NCBI GenBank assembly: GCA_036387335.1
Contig: DASVTZ010000105.1
Location: forward strand, 62,001 to 126,000
Source of the DNA: Longimicrobium sp.
GTDB taxonomy: Bacteria > Gemmatimonadota > Gemmatimonadetes > Longimicrobiales > Longimicrobiaceae
Direction of reading: 5' to 3'
Length of the DNA stretch: 64,000 nt
Position 1 is the stretch's first letter, and every line of letters begins with the position of its first letter. The notes beneath the pieces were generated by a model. The model saw only the letters and a list, made by a program, of their open reading frames with translations, was not told the DNA's origin and searched no databases. Shown here one piece after another: positions 6,020-52,532 of the stretch. The position numbers were made by a program, and so were the translations under genes.

Positions 6020-7123
6020 ATGCTCGTCTATCTGGACACTGCGCATTTCTCGTATTTAGCGGACACGGCCGACCCAGGCATGGTGCGAGCGTTCTTCCAG
6101 GCATGGGATCGGGCAGAGTGCGCACTGGCTTTCTCCGTCCCCCATCTGAAGGAGCTCGCCCAGCTGGGCGACTCGCGCGAGCGCCGGCTGGCGAGCCTGG
6201 AGCGATTTTCTGAGATTCGCTTCTCGCCTGAGGTCTCCGTTAAACTGATGCTCGAGGAGATCAAGCACCACTATGACGCGCGTAGCCGAGGCGAGATCGC
6301 TCCCGCGCACGCGCTCCGCAACCGCCTTTTCCCCCGCTCTGATCTCCGGGAGATCCGCGCAACCCTTTCCGATCTGGATGAGATTGTCCCCGAGATTCGG
6401 ACGCTCAACGAGCGCCATGCTGAATTTGTAAACGAGTATTTGAAGATGAGGCCGTTCATCAACGAGTTGAAGCAGATCACCCATGGTAAGCCGTGGCTCG
6501 AGGAGCTCTCACCTGAAGTATTGCGGCTGACCAGTGAAGATGTTGAAGCGGCAAGGCCGAAGGTGCAGAATCCGGAACTCGCACCGCTGAAGGCAATCTA
6601 CGGTCGGGTGAAGCGCGAGCGCGGTCGTGGCGCTCCTCTGCCGAACGGGTTCTACGAGGCGGTGCCGTCGCTTGCCTACTTGCAGCTACTCGATGAGCCC
6701 GGCATCGCGCGGAGACAAATCCCTGAGGAGGACCTCGAAATGGCGGCCGCATTCTATAGGCTGGCGATCGAGGAACTCGGGATTCAGCGATGCGAAAGCT
6801 CGTTTCTGACAACTCCATGGAGCATCGTTACCGATGAGATGGACCCGTACGCGTGCCCAGGTTGGAACCTCTGGATCGCAATTTTACGAGGGTTGCGAAG
6901 CGCCGGGAAAAACGCCGATGCAAGTGATCCGATCGATTGGGAGCATCTTTTCCATCTTCCCTATGTTGACCTAGCGTTCGTGGACAAACGGATCCTCGGT
7001 CACCTCCACGACCAGAGCAGGCGGCCCGGCTTCGGGCTGACTCCAGACGCGGTGTCGCACATTCACCGCGCCCCGAACCTGGAGGCCGTGATTCGCGAGA
7101 TTCAGGCTCATAGCAGAACCTGA
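6020..7123 (+). CDS. PIN-domain-like protein (putative nuclease), function unknown
   Basis: 367 residues. The start 'MLVYLDTAHFSYL' has the first-strand Asp (D6) expected of PIN-like nucleases; E45 in 'PHLKELAQL' fits the second acidic position, and the C-terminal 'YVDLAFVDKRI' supplies further Asp residues in the usual last-strand setting. The long middle is helical and much larger than in VapC toxins (about 130 residues), and no antitoxin gene is adjacent, so it is not a simple toxin-antitoxin pair. The gene is AT-richer than its neighbours, which suggests transfer. No clear ribosome site precedes the ATG. Family assignment rests on motif spacing only. Confidence 0.55.
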   Translation: MLVYLDTAHFSYLADTADPGMVRAFFQAWDRAECALAFSVPHLKELAQLGDSRERRLASLERFSEIRFSPEVSVKLMLEEIKHHYDARSRGEIAPAHALRNRLFPRSDLREIRATLSDLDEIVPEIRTLNERHAEFVNEYLKMRPFINELKQITHGKPWLEELSPEVLRLTSEDVEAARPKVQNPELAPLKAIYGRVKRERGRGAPLPNGFYEAVPSLAYLQLLDEPGIARRQIPEEDLEMAAAFYRLAIEELGIQRCESSFLTTPWSIVTDEMDPYACPGWNLWIAILRGLRSAGKNADASDPIDWEHLFHLPYVDLAFVDKRILGHLHDQSRRPGFGLTPDAVSHIHRAPNLEAVIREIQAHSRT

Positions 7124-10588: not shown

Positions 10589-10630
10589 GCGCCCGTCCTC
10601 CTCGCTCCCTTCCTCCCCCGGAACGTGCGC

Positions 10631-12538
10631 ATGGAAAACAAGGTCCTCGCGGGAACCGTGCAGTCCGGCGCCGCCGGCTTCACGCCGCTGGCGGGTGTTC
10701 CGGTGACGCTCTACCGGGCCACGGCGGACGCCCCCGTCACCATCGGGCAGGCGGTGACGGACGCGGACGGCGCCTTCGCCATTCCCGTCGCCGATGCGGA
10801 GGCGGACACCATCTACTACGCCACGGCCCGGTACCGGCCCACGGCGCTGCTGGTAGCCGTGGTGGGTCCGCGGGTCGAGGGGCCCGTCACCCTCAACGAG
10901 ATGTCGACGGTGGCGGCGGCGTACAGCATGGCGCAGTTCAGCGATGGAAGCCGCATCGCCGGCAACGCGTTCGGGCTGCGCATCGCGGCGGGGATGAACG
11001 GCAACCTCGTCGCGCCGGGGATCGGGATGCAGTCGCCCGTGCTGCTCACCCCGCCCAACGCCAACCAGACCATCGGGCTGCAGACCATCGGCTCGCTGGC
11101 CAATATGCTCTTCCAGTGCCTGCGCTACGGCGGCGAGTTCGAGCGGGAGCTGTTCGAGCTCACCACGATCCACGGCCGCGAAGCCCCCACGGACATCTTC
11201 CAGGCGGTGCAGAACATCGCCCATCATCCCGCCAACAACGTGGCCGAGCTGTTCGCGCTGTCGCGGAGGGCGATGCAGTACTTCGGGCCGGCGCTGGAGA
11301 GCGCGCCCGACGCCTGGACGCTGGCCGTCAAGTTCAACGACACGGGAGACGGGCAGACGCCGTTCGGGGGCCCGGCCAACATCGCGTTCGACCGGAACGG
11401 CTACGCCTGGATCGCCAACAACGTCGTCCAGGGCACGCCGAACTCGGGGCACTTCATCGTCGTCCTGCGGCCGGACGGAAGACCCGCGCGGGGCACGGAG
11501 GGGAAGCCGGCGTCGCCCGTGTACGGCGGGGGGCTCAAGGGCCCGGGGTGGGGGATCACCATCGCCCCGGACGACCACGTGTGGGTGGGCAACTTCGGCT
11601 GGGGCGTCAAGGCGGAGAACCCGCACCACGGCAGCGTGTCGGAGTTCCTGCCGGACGGCACGCCGATCTCGCCCGAGCACGGCTGGCACACGTACGTGAA
11701 CCGCGTGCAGGCCACGGTGGCGGACCGGCACGGCAACATCTGGATGGCGAGCTACGGCAACGGCCGCGTGGTGGTGTACGTGGGCGGCGACCCCGGCCGC
11801 GCGCTCTTCGCCGACAGCGGCAGCTACCCGTTCGGCATCGCGGTCGACGGCGACGACAACGTGTGGGTCACCAACGGCGGCGGGCTGGGATGGCCGGTCG
11901 CCGAGCAGGGCACCGTGGCCCGCTTCCGCCTGCGCGATCCCCACACGCTGGAGACGACGCTGGCCCCGCAGCCCGTGGGGAGCGCCACCAAGGTGATCGT
12001 GACCGACTCCGAAAACCACGTCTGGGTGGCGTCCAGCGGCGACAGCAAGGTGTATCAGGTGGGCTCCGACGGGTCCGTCCTCGGCGCCTACGACGGCGGC
12101 GGCATCGACGGGCCGTGGGGGCTGGCGGTGGATGGCGACGACAACGTCTGGGTGGCCAGCTTCGGGTCAATGGGGGTGACCAGCGAGTTCTCCGGCGCGC
12201 TCTCCACGCTCAAGGGTGCCAACCGTGACGCCAGCCCTGCGGGCGTGGATACCGGCACGCCTCTCTCACCCCCGACCGGCTACACGCTCCGCTCCGGCGG
12301 CGCCCCGGTCACGCTCCCCAGCGGCGAGCCGCTGTACACCGACGGCAAGGTGTGCTACACCCCCTTCATGCGTGCCACGAGCTGCCAGATCGACCAGGCG
12401 GGGAACGTGTGGGTGGTGAACAACTGGAAGCCCGGCTTCGCCACCGACTTCGACCCCAAGAGCGGTGACCCCGGCGGCGACGGCATCGTGATCTTCGTGG
12501 GCCTCGCCCCGCCGCCGCAAAGGCCCGCCGCGGGCTGA
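10631..12538 (+). CDS. NHL/SMP-30-type beta-propeller protein
   Basis: 635 residues from ATG 10631 (a GTG two codons upstream is also possible). The first 80 residues look like a carboxypeptidase-regulatory or Cna-B-like beta sandwich ('LAGVPVTLYRAT', 'VTDADGAFAIPV'). From about 235 on, six-fold repeats of the form 'AFDRNGYAWIAN', 'TIAPDDHVWVGN', 'VADRHGNIWMAS', 'AVDGDDNVWVTN', 'VTDSENHVWVAS' and 'AVDGDDNVWVAS' are the blades of an NHL or streptogramin-lyase-like propeller. No signal peptide is seen. No catalytic residues can be assigned, so it may be a binding scaffold. It probably is co-transcribed with the DUF885 gene. Confidence 0.85.
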   Translation: MENKVLAGTVQSGAAGFTPLAGVPVTLYRATADAPVTIGQAVTDADGAFAIPVADAEADTIYYATARYRPTALLVAVVGPRVEGPVTLNEMSTVAAAYSMAQFSDGSRIAGNAFGLRIAAGMNGNLVAPGIGMQSPVLLTPPNANQTIGLQTIGSLANMLFQCLRYGGEFERELFELTTIHGREAPTDIFQAVQNIAHHPANNVAELFALSRRAMQYFGPALESAPDAWTLAVKFNDTGDGQTPFGGPANIAFDRNGYAWIANNVVQGTPNSGHFIVVLRPDGRPARGTEGKPASPVYGGGLKGPGWGITIAPDDHVWVGNFGWGVKAENPHHGSVSEFLPDGTPISPEHGWHTYVNRVQATVADRHGNIWMASYGNGRVVVYVGGDPGRALFADSGSYPFGIAVDGDDNVWVTNGGGLGWPVAEQGTVARFRLRDPHTLETTLAPQPVGSATKVIVTDSENHVWVASSGDSKVYQVGSDGSVLGAYDGGGIDGPWGLAVDGDDNVWVASFGSMGVTSEFSGALSTLKGANRDASPAGVDTGTPLSPPTGYTLRSGGAPVTLPSGEPLYTDGKVCYTPFMRATSCQIDQAGNVWVVNNWKPGFATDFDPKSGDPGGDGIVIFVGLAPPPQRPAAG

Positions 12539-12916
12539 GCGAGCTCAAACGGAGAGCCGTTGCCGGGGCGGCGGGGCCGGTGCGTGCCGCGTTTTTAGGA
12601 GGAGCAGGACTGGTGACCCAGGCAGGCGCAGGGCGGGGAGTGGATCTTGACGGCGACCTGCTTCTGCACTCCCGCGCACGGTGCGGAGGGCACCCTGCTT
12701 TGCGTGTGCCAGCGTGTACATCCGTGGTTTGGTTGCCCATTAGAGCCCAGCACGGCTATTATTGCCGAACCCGCCGGCTTACGCGCGGTTCGCGTGTGAG
12801 GCAGTCATCATGGCACAAAGCCATCATGGCAGCTGTTGACCAACGATGCTGATACGCGGCCTGAACGCATACGGTGCAAGGTTTGTTGATCGCTTTCGTC
12901 CGGAGACTAGTCGATC
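12539..12916. other. Intergenic region upstream of the reverse transcriptase gene
   Basis: 378 bases. The first 200 are GC-rich and hold a Cys-coding stretch on the minus strand without a start codon. From about 12740 the composition becomes AT-richer, matching the reverse transcriptase gene. A direct repeat CATCATGGCA occurs at 12806-12815 and 12822-12831, and the second copy is part of a short palindrome (GCCATCATGGC). A non-coding RNA template could lie here, but no clear retron-type msr/msd fold was seen by eye. Confidence 0.5.
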
Positions 12917-14497
12917 ATGCAACTCCACGACTTCCTCGCCCGTGGGTACTTTCCGAAAGAACTCCCGCCCCCATTCACGACCGTTCCGTTTGCTGATTTC
13001 GTCACAGCAACCAATCTGACAATTGATCCTCGCCCCGGGACAACAGCGCGAGGCTTAATTACGCGTGCGTGTGCTCATGACCTAGCACGTCCAGGGAATC
13101 TACGTAGAGCACTGCAGATTCCTCATCCATTGAACTATTACCAGCTGTGCGATGTAATTTCGAAAGAGTGGGGGAACATCGATGCGCATTTGAACAAGGC
13201 TGCGTTGTCCCTGACAAGGCCAGTCCAGGACCCACTCGCATTTCGCGCAGTGCGAACACAGCGGGAAGGCGGAGAGCTGCCGCACATCCGAGCTCAGAAC
13301 AGAGCCACTTCAAGAGTGATCTTAAAGGCCGACATTTCGCGCTTTTATCCTTCCATTTACACGCACAGCATACCTTGGGCTCTCGACGGGAAAGCAGCCG
13401 CAAAGAAGGTGCGATCTGGCGGACTCGGCAATGACTTAGATCTTTTTCTCCGGAATTCGCAGGATGGGCAAACACTCGGTATTCCCATAGGCCCGGATGC
13501 ATCGTTAGTTGTAGCAGAAATTATCGGAGCCGCTATTGATTCCGAATTAGAGAAATCTGGTTTGAAGGGCTTCAGATTCATGGACGATTTCGAATTTGTG
13601 TTTCCTTCGCGCCAGCAGGCGGAGGCTGCGATTCCACGGATTGAGCACGTATTACGTGAGTACGAGTTGGCCTTGAACTCGTTCAAAACAAGCGTTGAGG
13701 ATTTGCCCCGCCCCCTCGAGCGTCGGTGGGTTGATACACTGCGCTACTTTGATCCCGCCGAGACTGGTCATATGGACCAGAGCGATGTGTTACGATATTT
13801 TGATCTTGCCTTCAGCCTCCGTGAAGCAGAGCCTTCTGAGGCGATTCTGAGTTATGCTATTGCGCGGTTGCGGTCAGTGGTCGTGGATGGCGACGCCTGG
13901 GAATTATTCCAGGACCTCATGTTCCAATGCGTGATGGTCGAGCCTGGTTGCTTGCAATCTGTCGTGTCTCTTTTCCATCAAAAGGGTACGCGGGCGGTAT
14001 CGCCGAAATTTGGGAACGCACTTGAGCAGGTGATTGCATTGCATGCGCCTCTGGGTCATGCATCAGAGGTGGCCTGGGCAGTGTGGGCCGCCATCTGGTT
14101 CAAGTTAGAGCTATCTGGAGCTACTGCTCTGATCTTATCCACACAAGCAGATTCGGTCGTGGCACTTCTTGCGCTACATGCGCGCGATGCTGGCTACATC
14201 GATGCGGCAGCGGATTTTTCCGACTGGGAGGCGATGATGACTCAGGATAGCCTTTACGATGGGAACTGGCTGCTAGCGTACGAGGCTGAGATCAAGGGCT
14301 GGCTGCCTACGCAGGGGCACGTTGATGCAGACCCGAATTTGTCACAACTGAAAGCCGCAGGTGTTTCCTTTTACGACGTGAACGTCGCCACACCCACGAT
14401 TCGGCCTGTTGCCACAGGTCCTTATGGAGAACCCCTTCCAACTTTCAGCGCTCGAGAGGCTCCGAATGTTGAGGATGATGATGATCTTTCGTTCTGA
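12917..14497 (+). CDS. Reverse transcriptase (RNA-directed DNA polymerase), putative anti-phage DRT/Abi-type
   Basis: 526 residues. The palm motifs are present: motif A 'KADISRFYPSIYTH' with Asp139, motif B 'GIPIGPDASLVVAEI' at 188-202, motif C 'FRFMDDFEFVF' with FMDD at 221-224 (Met in place of the usual Ala), and motif D/E around 'LALNSFKTSVEDLP'. About 240 residues follow the palm; they are mainly helical and end in an acidic tail ('VEDDDDLSF'). The NAxxH and VTG motifs of retron RTs are absent and there is no group-II-intron maturase domain. This fits stand-alone 'unknown group' RTs, several of which are phage-defence proteins (DRT, AbiA/AbiK types). The gene is clearly AT-richer than both neighbours, so it is likely imported. 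GGAG lies 11 bases before the ATG. Confidence 0.85.
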   Translation: MQLHDFLARGYFPKELPPPFTTVPFADFVTATNLTIDPRPGTTARGLITRACAHDLARPGNLRRALQIPHPLNYYQLCDVISKEWGNIDAHLNKAALSLTRPVQDPLAFRAVRTQREGGELPHIRAQNRATSRVILKADISRFYPSIYTHSIPWALDGKAAAKKVRSGGLGNDLDLFLRNSQDGQTLGIPIGPDASLVVAEIIGAAIDSELEKSGLKGFRFMDDFEFVFPSRQQAEAAIPRIEHVLREYELALNSFKTSVEDLPRPLERRWVDTLRYFDPAETGHMDQSDVLRYFDLAFSLREAEPSEAILSYAIARLRSVVVDGDAWELFQDLMFQCVMVEPGCLQSVVSLFHQKGTRAVSPKFGNALEQVIALHAPLGHASEVAWAVWAAIWFKLELSGATALILSTQADSVVALLALHARDAGYIDAAADFSDWEAMMTQDSLYDGNWLLAYEAEIKGWLPTQGHVDADPNLSQLKAAGVSFYDVNVATPTIRPVATGPYGEPLPTFSAREAPNVEDDDDLSF

Positions 14498-14776
14498 GCG
14501 GGTGCGTTGCATTTGGGGTGCATCGATCGGGTGCGCCTTGTAATCCAGAGCGCTGAGATCGAGCAGCATCCCATTCGCTGGTGTCGGGAACACATGTCGA
14601 GATCGAGGCGCACTCTGGGCGCACCAGCGTCGTGCTGCCGCGTGCCGATCATCCTTCCAGGGATGGCTCGCCCCGGTGGGTCGCGTTTCCCATGAAATGA
14701 TCTTACTTACGCAGCCTCCGGTGCGGTTGTTCGGTGCTTTCAGGGATAGGCCATTCACATCCTCCCCATCGCCCCT
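14498..14776. other. Intergenic region after the reverse transcriptase gene
   Basis: 279 bases with no gene. The AT-richer composition of the RT gene continues for part of it and returns to GC-rich sequence near 14760, so the right border of the imported segment probably lies here. No strong terminator or attachment-site repeat was seen. Confidence 0.4.
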
Positions 14777-16138
14777 ATGCCCTCCCCCACACGCGTAACC
14801 TTCTTCCCCCGCTGGACCCCCGTCGCGAGTGGTGTAATCGGCCCTGAGGAGCGGCTGCCGTGGGGGCAGACGCTGGTGGTGGGGCTGCAGCACGTGTTCG
14901 CCATGTTCGGGGCGACGGTGCTGGTGCCGATTCTCATGGGGTTCGATCCCAACACATCCGTGTTCTTTTCGGGGATCGGGACGCTGCTGTTTTTCGCGGT
15001 GGTGGGCGGAAGAGTGCCGAGCTACCTGGGGAGCAGCTTCGCGTTTGTGGCGGTCACGCTCGCGGCGACGGGGTACGCCGGGAAGGGGCCGAATCCCAAC
15101 ATCGGCGTGGCGCTGGGCGGGATCATCGCGGCGGGGGCGCTGTACGCGGTGATCGGGCTGATCGTGATGGCGACGGGGTACCGGTGGATCGAGCGGCTGA
15201 TGCCTCCCGTCGTCACCGGCTCGGTGGTGGCGGTGATCGGGCTGAACCTGGCGCCGGTCGCGGTGCGCGCCATCAGCGGGAGCGGCTTCGACTCCGCCAT
15301 CGGGCTGGCGACGGTGCTGGCCACGTGCGCGGTGGCCGTCTACGCGCCCGGGCTGCTGCGCCGCGTGCCGATCCTGCTGGGCGGGGTCATCGGCTACCTG
15401 CTGTACCTGGTGCTGGCCAACGGGATGGGGTTGGGGCCCGCGGTCGACTTCGCGGCGCTGCGCGATGCGGCGTGGATCGGGCTGCCCAACTTCTCGCGCC
15501 CCGTCTTCCGCTGGGACGTGGCGCTGCTCTTTGCGCCGGCGGCGCTGGTGCTGGTGGCGGAGAACCTGGGGCACGTCAAGGCGGTGGGCGCCATGACGGG
15601 GCAGTCGCTGGACCGCTACCTGGGCCGCGCCTTCCTGGGCGATGGGCTGGCGTGCATGCTGGCCGCGTCCGGCGGCGGTACGGGCGTGACGACGTACGCC
15701 GAGAACATCGGGGTGATGGCGGTGACGCGCATCTACTCGACGCTCATCTTCCTGGTGGCGGCGATGGCGGCGGTGGTGATGGGGCTGTCGCCCAAGTTCG
15801 GGGCGCTGGTGGGGACGATTCCGGGGCCGGTGCTGGGCGGGCTTTCGGTGGTGCTGTTCGGGCTGATCGCGGCGACCGGCGGGCGCATCTGGGTGCAGAA
15901 CCGGGTGGACTTCTCCAATAGCCGCAACCTGGTGACGGCCGCGGTGACGCTCACCGTGGGCGCGGGCGACCTGGTGCTCAAGCTGGGCGGGTTCTCCGTC
16001 GGCGGCATCGGCACCGCGACGTTCGGGGCGATCATCATCTACCAGCTTCTGCGCGAGCCCGCGGAGCGCCACGATGCCCTGGGCACCGCGGACTCCGGCG
16101 TGGATCCCGAGACGGTGCGGGCCGCGGCACCGCACTGA
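14777..16138 (+). CDS. NCS2-family nucleobase permease (uracil/xanthine type)
   Basis: 453 residues, almost all transmembrane, about 14 segments. The NCS2 (solute carrier 23) hallmarks are seen: 'QTLVVGLQHVFAMFGATVLVP' near the start, the substrate-site Glu in 'VLVAENLGHVKAV', and 'TGVTTYAENIGVMAVTRIYS', the form typical of uracil permease UraA rather than of xanthine or purine carriers. It should import a nucleobase with protons across the inner membrane; uracil is the best guess. No pyrimidine genes are next to it. The last 30 residues form a polar cytoplasmic tail. Confidence 0.92.
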   Translation: MPSPTRVTFFPRWTPVASGVIGPEERLPWGQTLVVGLQHVFAMFGATVLVPILMGFDPNTSVFFSGIGTLLFFAVVGGRVPSYLGSSFAFVAVTLAATGYAGKGPNPNIGVALGGIIAAGALYAVIGLIVMATGYRWIERLMPPVVTGSVVAVIGLNLAPVAVRAISGSGFDSAIGLATVLATCAVAVYAPGLLRRVPILLGGVIGYLLYLVLANGMGLGPAVDFAALRDAAWIGLPNFSRPVFRWDVALLFAPAALVLVAENLGHVKAVGAMTGQSLDRYLGRAFLGDGLACMLAASGGGTGVTTYAENIGVMAVTRIYSTLIFLVAAMAAVVMGLSPKFGALVGTIPGPVLGGLSVVLFGLIAATGGRIWVQNRVDFSNSRNLVTAAVTLTVGAGDLVLKLGGFSVGGIGTATFGAIIIYQLLREPAERHDALGTADSGVDPETVRAAAPH

Positions 16139-51350: not shown

Positions 51351-51516
51351 ACCTGAACTTTCGGATTGGCGCGGCACCATAACGGGCGGCCCAATCCTCG
51401 ATCTTTTTGATCTCCTCCGGGGTGAGGCGCGGCGGCGGCGGAATCGGCGGCTTGGATCCGCCCCGCGGGGGCACCGGCGCCGGAAGCGGCGGCGCGCCTG
51501 GCTTACTCTCGCTCAT
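51349..51516 (-). CDS. Small proline-rich protein coupled to a proteasome-like hydrolase
   Basis: 55 residues from ATG 51516. The first 33 are Pro/Gly/Ser/Lys-rich and should be disordered ('PGAPPLPAPVPPRGGSKPPI'); the last 22 form one amphipathic helix and a basic tail ('LTPEEIKKIEDWAARYGAAPIRKFR'). The ATG overlaps the stop of the preceding Ntn-hydrolase-like gene (ATGA), so it is translated with it and is very likely its partner. The terminator at 51318 follows two bases after its stop. No family is recognised. Confidence 0.7.
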   Translation of the reverse strand: MSESKPGAPPLPAPVPPRGGSKPPIPPPPRLTPEEIKKIEDWAARYGAAPIRKFR

Positions 51517-52454
51517 ATCGCTCCCATGCGCTTGTTTGTTCGAGCGGTACCATCGGCGGGAGGGTTGAGGTCCCGAGTGAAGTAGTGTTTGCGAGCAACC
51601 CACTTGAACCCCTGGTGCCGCGTGACCACCGCGATGTCGATGGGCGGAGCCACCGCCGGTACCCCTTGCTTGAACCTTACATACCCGACCGTTACGTCCG
51701 CCAGGTACTCCACGAGATCGATGGCGTCCTGCAAGGGCATGCCGGGATGGGCAAGCTCCGTTCGCGAAACGAGGAGCTGATCCGCCATTTCCGGCGCGAT
51801 ACCCGCCTGCACCACGCGAAGGTGCGCTTCGTGCGACCAGCCGTATACCAGCCGGTACAACGCTTCCGGCATTCCCCAGAAGTCGGCTACGCCCGATTCG
51901 CCCTGGCCGAACCTCTGTTCTGGCCCCGTGCACCGGCCATCCGATTCTATAGTGACGGTCCAGACCTCCGAATAGTAGCTAGCCGCCGAGAGCCCGGCAA
52001 CGACAAAACCGAGCGTCGGGAACTCAGGGGCCTCCGCCCCGGGAGCGCCTCCCTCTCCGTCCCACTCCGCGTCAGGTTCGGATGTGTCAGGGCCGAGTGC
52101 CATGGGGTTGCCGAATTCGGGAGCGTACAGCCCATCGTAAAAGAAATCGCGGACCCGCTGGGCGACTTCTTCAACCGTGTACTCCGAGGGATCGAGCGCC
52201 CATTCCGGATGCGCGGGATCCTCCCCACTGAGGCGCTGCCGCAGGTCTCGCGCGAGACTTCCGATCGATAGCCCAGCGAGGCCGCCCAGCCCGTACGTCA
52301 TGAGCCCGATGGGGAGGCCCTTCACCAGGTTGATGGTCTTTTCGGCGTTGTTGTATACGTTGAAGTACCTGTCGTTCTCGCCGATCAGCGACGCCGCGCT
52401 GTCCGTGCCGAGTACCACTCCGTCTCCAACTTTCAGGCAGATGGCGATCGTCAC
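51513..52454 (-). CDS. Proteasome beta-subunit-like Ntn-hydrolase, orphan
   Basis: 313 residues if started at GTG 52454, which puts Thr at position 2 (potential Thr1 nucleophile after Met removal). 'TIAICLKVGDGVVLGTDSAAS' matches the first strands of proteasome beta subunits: Thr1, then Asp17 at exactly the catalytic spacing, and a Lys in 'NNAEKTINLV' that could be the Lys33 equivalent with a five-residue insertion, followed by 'IGLMTYGLGGLAGLSIGSLARDLR' like the G-rich strand and helix 1. A GTG at 52523 would add a 23-residue prosegment. The middle and C-terminal parts (to 313) are larger than in HslV or Anbu (about 170-245) and carry 'EFPTLGFVVAGLSAAS' like the second core strand. No alpha subunit or ATPase gene is near. 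It reads into a 55-residue Pro-rich gene. The composition is somewhat AT-richer than the surroundings. Confidence 0.65.
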   Translation of the reverse strand: MTIAICLKVGDGVVLGTDSAASLIGENDRYFNVYNNAEKTINLVKGLPIGLMTYGLGGLAGLSIGSLARDLRQRLSGEDPAHPEWALDPSEYTVEEVAQRVRDFFYDGLYAPEFGNPMALGPDTSEPDAEWDGEGGAPGAEAPEFPTLGFVVAGLSAASYYSEVWTVTIESDGRCTGPEQRFGQGESGVADFWGMPEALYRLVYGWSHEAHLRVVQAGIAPEMADQLLVSRTELAHPGMPLQDAIDLVEYLADVTVGYVRFKQGVPAVAPPIDIAVVTRHQGFKWVARKHYFTRDLNPPADGTARTNKRMGAI

Positions 52455-52532
52455 GGCACGTTCCGGGAAGAAAGTGGACCTTTCGAGGCTAAGCTCGTCA
52501 GGAACAGATACCCCGGACGGCACCGACCGGTG

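Follow-up and report, generated by a model that had tools for sequence, protein, structure and literature searches.

The window analysed here, a 64-kb stretch of DNA, carries a complete, full-length open reading frame for a reverse transcriptase (RT), whose product matches the Pfam RVT_1 model at 32.1 bits (cut-off 29.6); it is the sole RVT_1 match in the 5.8 Mb host genome. The initial annotation had described an AT-rich gene with RT palm motifs, set between gaps of 378 and 279 bases, and all of these points were borne out. The RVT_1 match lies above its cut-off and FMDD is found at residues 221-224 (Table 1), and the gene has a GC content of 0.535 compared with 0.701 for the whole window. 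At the first, second and third codon positions the GC content is 0.62, 0.44 and 0.54, against a third-position value of 0.92-0.965 in native genes (n=15), and the codon-adaptation index is 0.20 against 0.67-0.83 in native genes. Two further open reading frames in the window have low third-position GC (6020-7123, 0.70; 51513-52523, 0.74) and no Pfam match; they were possibly acquired too.

Table 1. Features of the RT locus; positions are those of the window.
Feature	Position	Strand	Basis
DRT6/UG12 reverse transcriptase gene, 526 aa	12917..14497	+	ATG start; PADLOC profile, sequence and fold matches
Fingers and palm, about residues 1-285	12917..13771	+	AF2 model; RVT_1 at residues 126-260; boundary approximate
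Motif A and class 1 signature IYTHSIPWA, residues 139-155	13331..13381	+	D139 catalytic; invariance in 60 relatives
FMDD, residues 221-224, catalytic D223 and D224	13577..13588	+	conservation in 60 relatives
C-terminal helical-repeat (alpha-Rep/HEAT-like) domain, about residues 286-493	13772..14395	+	predicted all-helical, high pLDDT
Disordered acidic C-terminal tail, residues 494-526	14396..14494	+	pLDDT <50
SSB-C-terminal-tip-like peptide EDDDDLSF	14471..14494	+	likeness to host SSB; shuffle and background tests
Upstream gap	12539..12916	+	no structured RNA detected
Downstream gap	14498..14776	+	no structured RNA detected

The catalytic residues D139, D223 and D224 are intact. Among 60 aligned relatives D139 and the run I147-Y148-T149-H150-S151-I152-P153-W154 are invariant, as are G188, R220, D223, K257, W451 and F485, and D224 is nearly so. 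The FMDD centre had been called unusual; the exact form is indeed unique to this protein among the 60 relatives, but other forms with F in the first place are common (FIDD in 9, FVDD in 2) and most relatives have Y or F at residue 221, which makes FMDD a mild variant. Y144 is the probable steric gate, by analogy with RTs generally. In an AF2 monomer model built from the 60 relatives (pLDDT 89.5, pTM 0.90) the C-terminal region is all-helical, as had been supposed, although the helical part ends at about residue 493 and gives way to a disordered tail. The model superposes along the full length on DRT6, DRT4/UG15 and AbiK. Three UG12 relatives, L044 (758 aa), L079 (673 aa) and L057 (637 aa), have long extensions beyond the RT domain with no Pfam match.

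The initial annotation left the protein without a named group, and here our results go further: by profile, sequence and predicted fold the RT is a member of DRT6/UG12 (class 1). The PADLOC Drt6 profile PDLC03748 matches residues 1-500 at 540.7 bits (E 9.5e-163) and the UG15-derived Drt4 profile PDLC03752 gives 287.3 bits, the assignment of these two profiles to UG12 and UG15 being read from the profile names. The solved 'hexameric DRT6' structure, PDB 9wy8, is matched by sequence (5e-68) and is also the best fold match of the model (TM 0.86/0.92, rmsd 2.3 A over 508 columns); UG15/DRT4 comes next, then AbiK and Abi-P2, with group II intron and retron RTs far behind. Like the RT studied here, 9wy8 is the product of a single gene, and the two agree in a full-length sequence match, whole-chain fold, catalytic residues and an acidic tail, which in 9wy8 (...DSDHSDDDDDD) can be followed as far as the alignment reaches, short of its last residues. 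They differ in that identity is only about 30%, the two fall on different supported UG12 branches, and the RT ends in a tip like that of single-stranded DNA-binding protein (SSB). As the initial annotation had it, the protein is neither a retron nor a group II intron RT: the retron profile gives 23 bits against a cut-off of 235 in a locus where no RNA was found in the gaps, and the group II intron profile gives 37.9 bits against a cut-off of 300, with no Rfam intron match nearby.

We considered whether the RT might instead belong to DRT4 (UG15), which would change the named group and leave the mechanism the same. PADLOC profiles labelled Drt4 reach 527 and 481 bits on the RT, close to the Drt6 score, but 9wy8 itself scores 732 with a 'Drt4'-labelled profile and 606 with Drt6, and we therefore regard the near-tie as a matter of labels that overlap UG12. 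True UG15 proteins prefer the UG15 profile over the UG12 profile (428 vs 241; 392 vs 306), and the NCBIfam Drt4 model (NF041749) gives the RT 251 bits against a cut-off of 450. In a quick tree with UG12 and UG15 rows the RT belongs to a group of 18 UG12 rows from many phyla (support 99), and the four UG15 rows cluster on a branch of their own (support 100) that does not include it. UG12 as one clade without UG15 is neither shown nor rejected by the AU test (p 0.40), which leaves its monophyly unsettled, and the branches of AbiK and Abi-P2 are too long for rooting the tree. DRT4/UG15 (9vdo, 9l9s, 21ou) shares class 1 architecture and a single gene with the RT, and the same product and ORF55 trigger are proposed for both; it is second-best by fold, and differs in its lower profile score and separate branch. 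Taking these points together, we think a DRT4 assignment very unlikely. Within DRT6/UG12 the RT is at most 46% identical to complete relatives and shares 50% identity with the interrupted homologue of one congener.

It had also been suggested that the flanks of the gene could hold a non-coding RNA, and the gaps on either side do leave room for one; the RT would then resemble the class 2 systems DRT2, DRT9 and DRT10, with a flanking RNA template that went undetected. Our evidence is against this: (i) folding of the upstream and downstream gaps gave z-scores of +0.75 and -0.23 against shuffles, that is, no signal, and an Rfam search of both gaps returned no match at E<=1; (ii) in congeners the upstream gap has no counterpart beyond scraps of 30-47 nt, and among 10 genomes of the genus the downstream gap is present solely in this one; (iii) in close pairs of relatives the flanks are unrelated, lying at about the shuffled-control level on both sides of L021 and L027 (open reading frames 94% identical to each other) and at about the shuffled level for L003 and L058 (84% identical) and for six betaproteobacterial copies (74-86% identical); and (iv) gap length varies freely among relatives. 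Flanks were kept in L004/L006 and L049/L052, as expected of close or syntenic genomes. The comparison of flanks across related genomes gave no conserved RNA signal, the nearest known proteins by fold are class 1, and we reject a flanking RNA as highly improbable.

Relatives of the RT occur in genome contigs of many phyla (240) and at 20 loci in viral contigs, and are scattered within its own phylum. The gene is absent from eight of nine congeners. The ninth (G005) has a 50% identical homologue with an in-frame TGA at another location (L100:9132-10667; also L083), and a DndB-like gene lies near it (L100:6268-7248). In the closest congener the same DUF885 and uracil/xanthine permease genes are separated by about 5 kb of other genes (L096:3694-8686, corresponding to window 10589-14777), by eye a multicopper oxidase-like gene and one for a propeller-like protein; there is accordingly no clean empty site, and the interval between the DUF885 and permease genes is a possible variable locus. 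A search for mobile-element ends at the gene gave only short, chance-like pairs of direct and inverted repeats, and there is no tRNA within the 64-kb window. Clustering of neighbours at about 80 loci, with the alternative and split reading frames of the RT itself (which recur) set aside, gave no family present at more than a few of them as a conserved operon partner. The RT is a single-gene element: neither a partner gene nor a flanking RNA is conserved. In relatives the genes immediately next to it include CAP12 TIR, Cap4-like, AbiEii-like, HerA and NERD-UvrD genes, and restriction, Hachiman and NucC genes are also found nearby, a picture of defence neighbours that is drawn without a matched control and is to be read knowing that 44 window genes also give generic PADLOC matches.

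The gene was horizontally acquired, and probably recently, because its composition is still foreign; that it is a foreign, stand-alone, UG-class RT of the defence type, as first described, was likewise supported. Decay does occur in the lineage, as seen in the TGA-interrupted homologue of G005 and in a Gemmatimonadota homologue (G015; L011/L101) in which MWDE replaces xxDD and which may be catalytically altered, and the present gene could likewise have decayed or been domesticated and have no role in defence today. However, this copy is full length, has all family-invariant residues and still bears the composition of what is probably a recent arrival, and we regard this reading as very unlikely.

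The explanation that best accounts for the locus, and one in which we have considerable confidence, is that the gene, gained by horizontal transfer, encodes a DRT6 (UG12, class 1) RT of the single-gene kind whose probable anti-phage action would follow that of DRT4, DRT6 and AbiK. The helical domain is common to class 1 RTs, several of which form hexamers (PMC13174585), and for AbiK and Abi-P2 synthesis is known to need no template (PMC9508834). The product chemistry of DRT4, together with the activation of both DRT4 and DRT6 by phage ORF55, is described in reviews, where the product chemistry of DRT6 is less resolved than that of DRT4 (PMC13213688, PMC13314766). By extension from DRT4, DRT6 and AbiK, the RT would assemble as a hexamer and make single-stranded DNA (ssDNA) without a template; the ssDNA would be harmless as long as host nucleases clear it, and growth would stop once a phage DNA-binding protein protects it.

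The initiation step of the RT may differ from that of AbiK and Abi-P2. Both resemble it in having an RT palm and a C-terminal helical domain, but the AbiK profile gives only 152 bits and their priming tyrosines, Y44 in AbiK and Y61 in Abi-P2 (PMC9508834), have no Tyr counterpart in the RT, in which residues 21-62 are free of Tyr. In the N-terminal region of UG12 (residues 11-62) the AbiK and Abi-P2 priming positions are not kept, and the priming stretch is without Tyr in 21 of 60 aligned members, the RT included. If DRT6 is protein-primed, the primer would therefore have to lie elsewhere. Among the aligned members Tyr columns are conserved throughout at Y148 and Y455, and in most at Y486 and Y11.

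While the kind of enzyme is already known, the SSB-like tip is a novel part and worth specialist attention. The RT ends in EAPNVEDDDDLSF and the host's own SSB in QAPGMDDDDDLPF, with 8 of 13 residues identical, against at most 5 for the other SSBs tested; congener SSBs end in a similar way (EDDDDLPF, DDDDLPF). Compared with the host tip DDDDDLPF, EDDDDLSF retains the acidic run, the hydrophobic residue and the terminal Phe (Leu-X-Phe at the C-terminus), and differs in having Ser in place of the penultimate Pro and in being carried by a reverse transcriptase. Many DNA-maintenance proteins dock on the SSB tip, whose terminal Phe is essential (PMC10164576). The likeness of the tail suggests a link between the RT and the host machinery for handling DNA.

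Strict SSB-tip-like ends were found in 5 of 91 UG12-like proteins, a count in which one hit is non-independent (the pattern was defined after seeing the RT) and two others, L037 and L047, are related to each other. Besides the RT these are L037 (EDLPFI), L047 (YDDLPF), L070 (GDDIPY) and the viral L126 (DDDDDLPF), with L216 (TDLPF) as a looser case. One of 475 neighbouring open reading frames has such an end (Fisher p 5e-4 against the relatives), and it is a CAP12-TIR gene that immediately follows a DRT6 RT. This CAP12/Pycsar TIR protein (L028:6643-7506) begins 34 nt 3' of the RT and ends in ...EPADDFDDDIPF, which matches the E. coli type of SSB tip exactly; given its presence on this effector, the SSB tip may be wider among defence proteins. 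No SSB tip in a defence RT came up in a search of part of the literature, a result that carries little weight given that coverage.

A more speculative reading is that the acidic tail of the RT would copy the host SSB tip at its end and dock on a host SSB-interacting protein (an ssDNA exonuclease, or a factor in repair or replication), linking the ssDNA product with the machinery that normally follows SSB. Such putative docking has roughly an even chance of being right, and recruitment of an SSB-interacting nuclease to the ssDNA product is the form of it that we prefer. A plain acidic tail is about equally likely. In that case, which bears on the tail part only, the end would belong to a general acidic tail, holding the enzyme away from nucleic acid or acting as a gate to its DNA channel, and the likeness to SSB would be convergent, with no role related to SSB; we find the scales evenly balanced here. 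Acidic tails are common in UG12, 9wy8 included, with 24% D/E in the last 14 residues compared with 12% in neighbouring open reading frames, and most relatives have no SSB-like end. The penultimate Ser of the RT is the ssb-113 change (penultimate Pro to Ser), which weakens RecG binding from 3.1 to 23 uM (PMC10164576), and for L037 and L047 the SSB of their own host is not the best match. Against convergence, however, shuffles of each tail's own last ten residues gave a mean of 0.09 hits and none of 5000 reached five, the tips are exactly C-terminal and four of the five end in an aromatic residue, the RT and L070 match the SSB of their own host above any other tested (at most 6 for the others in the case of L070), and the sole tip-bearing neighbour, lying next to a DRT6 RT, is a defence gene too. 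Going beyond docking by this one protein, we propose tentatively, and with clearly less than an even chance, that a subset of DRT6 enzymes carries, on a disordered acidic tail, a functional, host-adapted copy of the SSB tip that would recruit SSB-interacting proteins, for instance an ssDNA exonuclease clearing the product until blocked by a phage protein, and couple untemplated ssDNA synthesis to the host's DNA-maintenance hub.

With regard to the family, the locus adds a further bacterial lineage to the range of DRT6 and speaks for these systems being single-gene and mobile. The SSB-like tip bears on how cells that make random ssDNA, as in class 1, survive in the time before phage infection; binding of a host nuclease by the tip, if real, would account for the off state.
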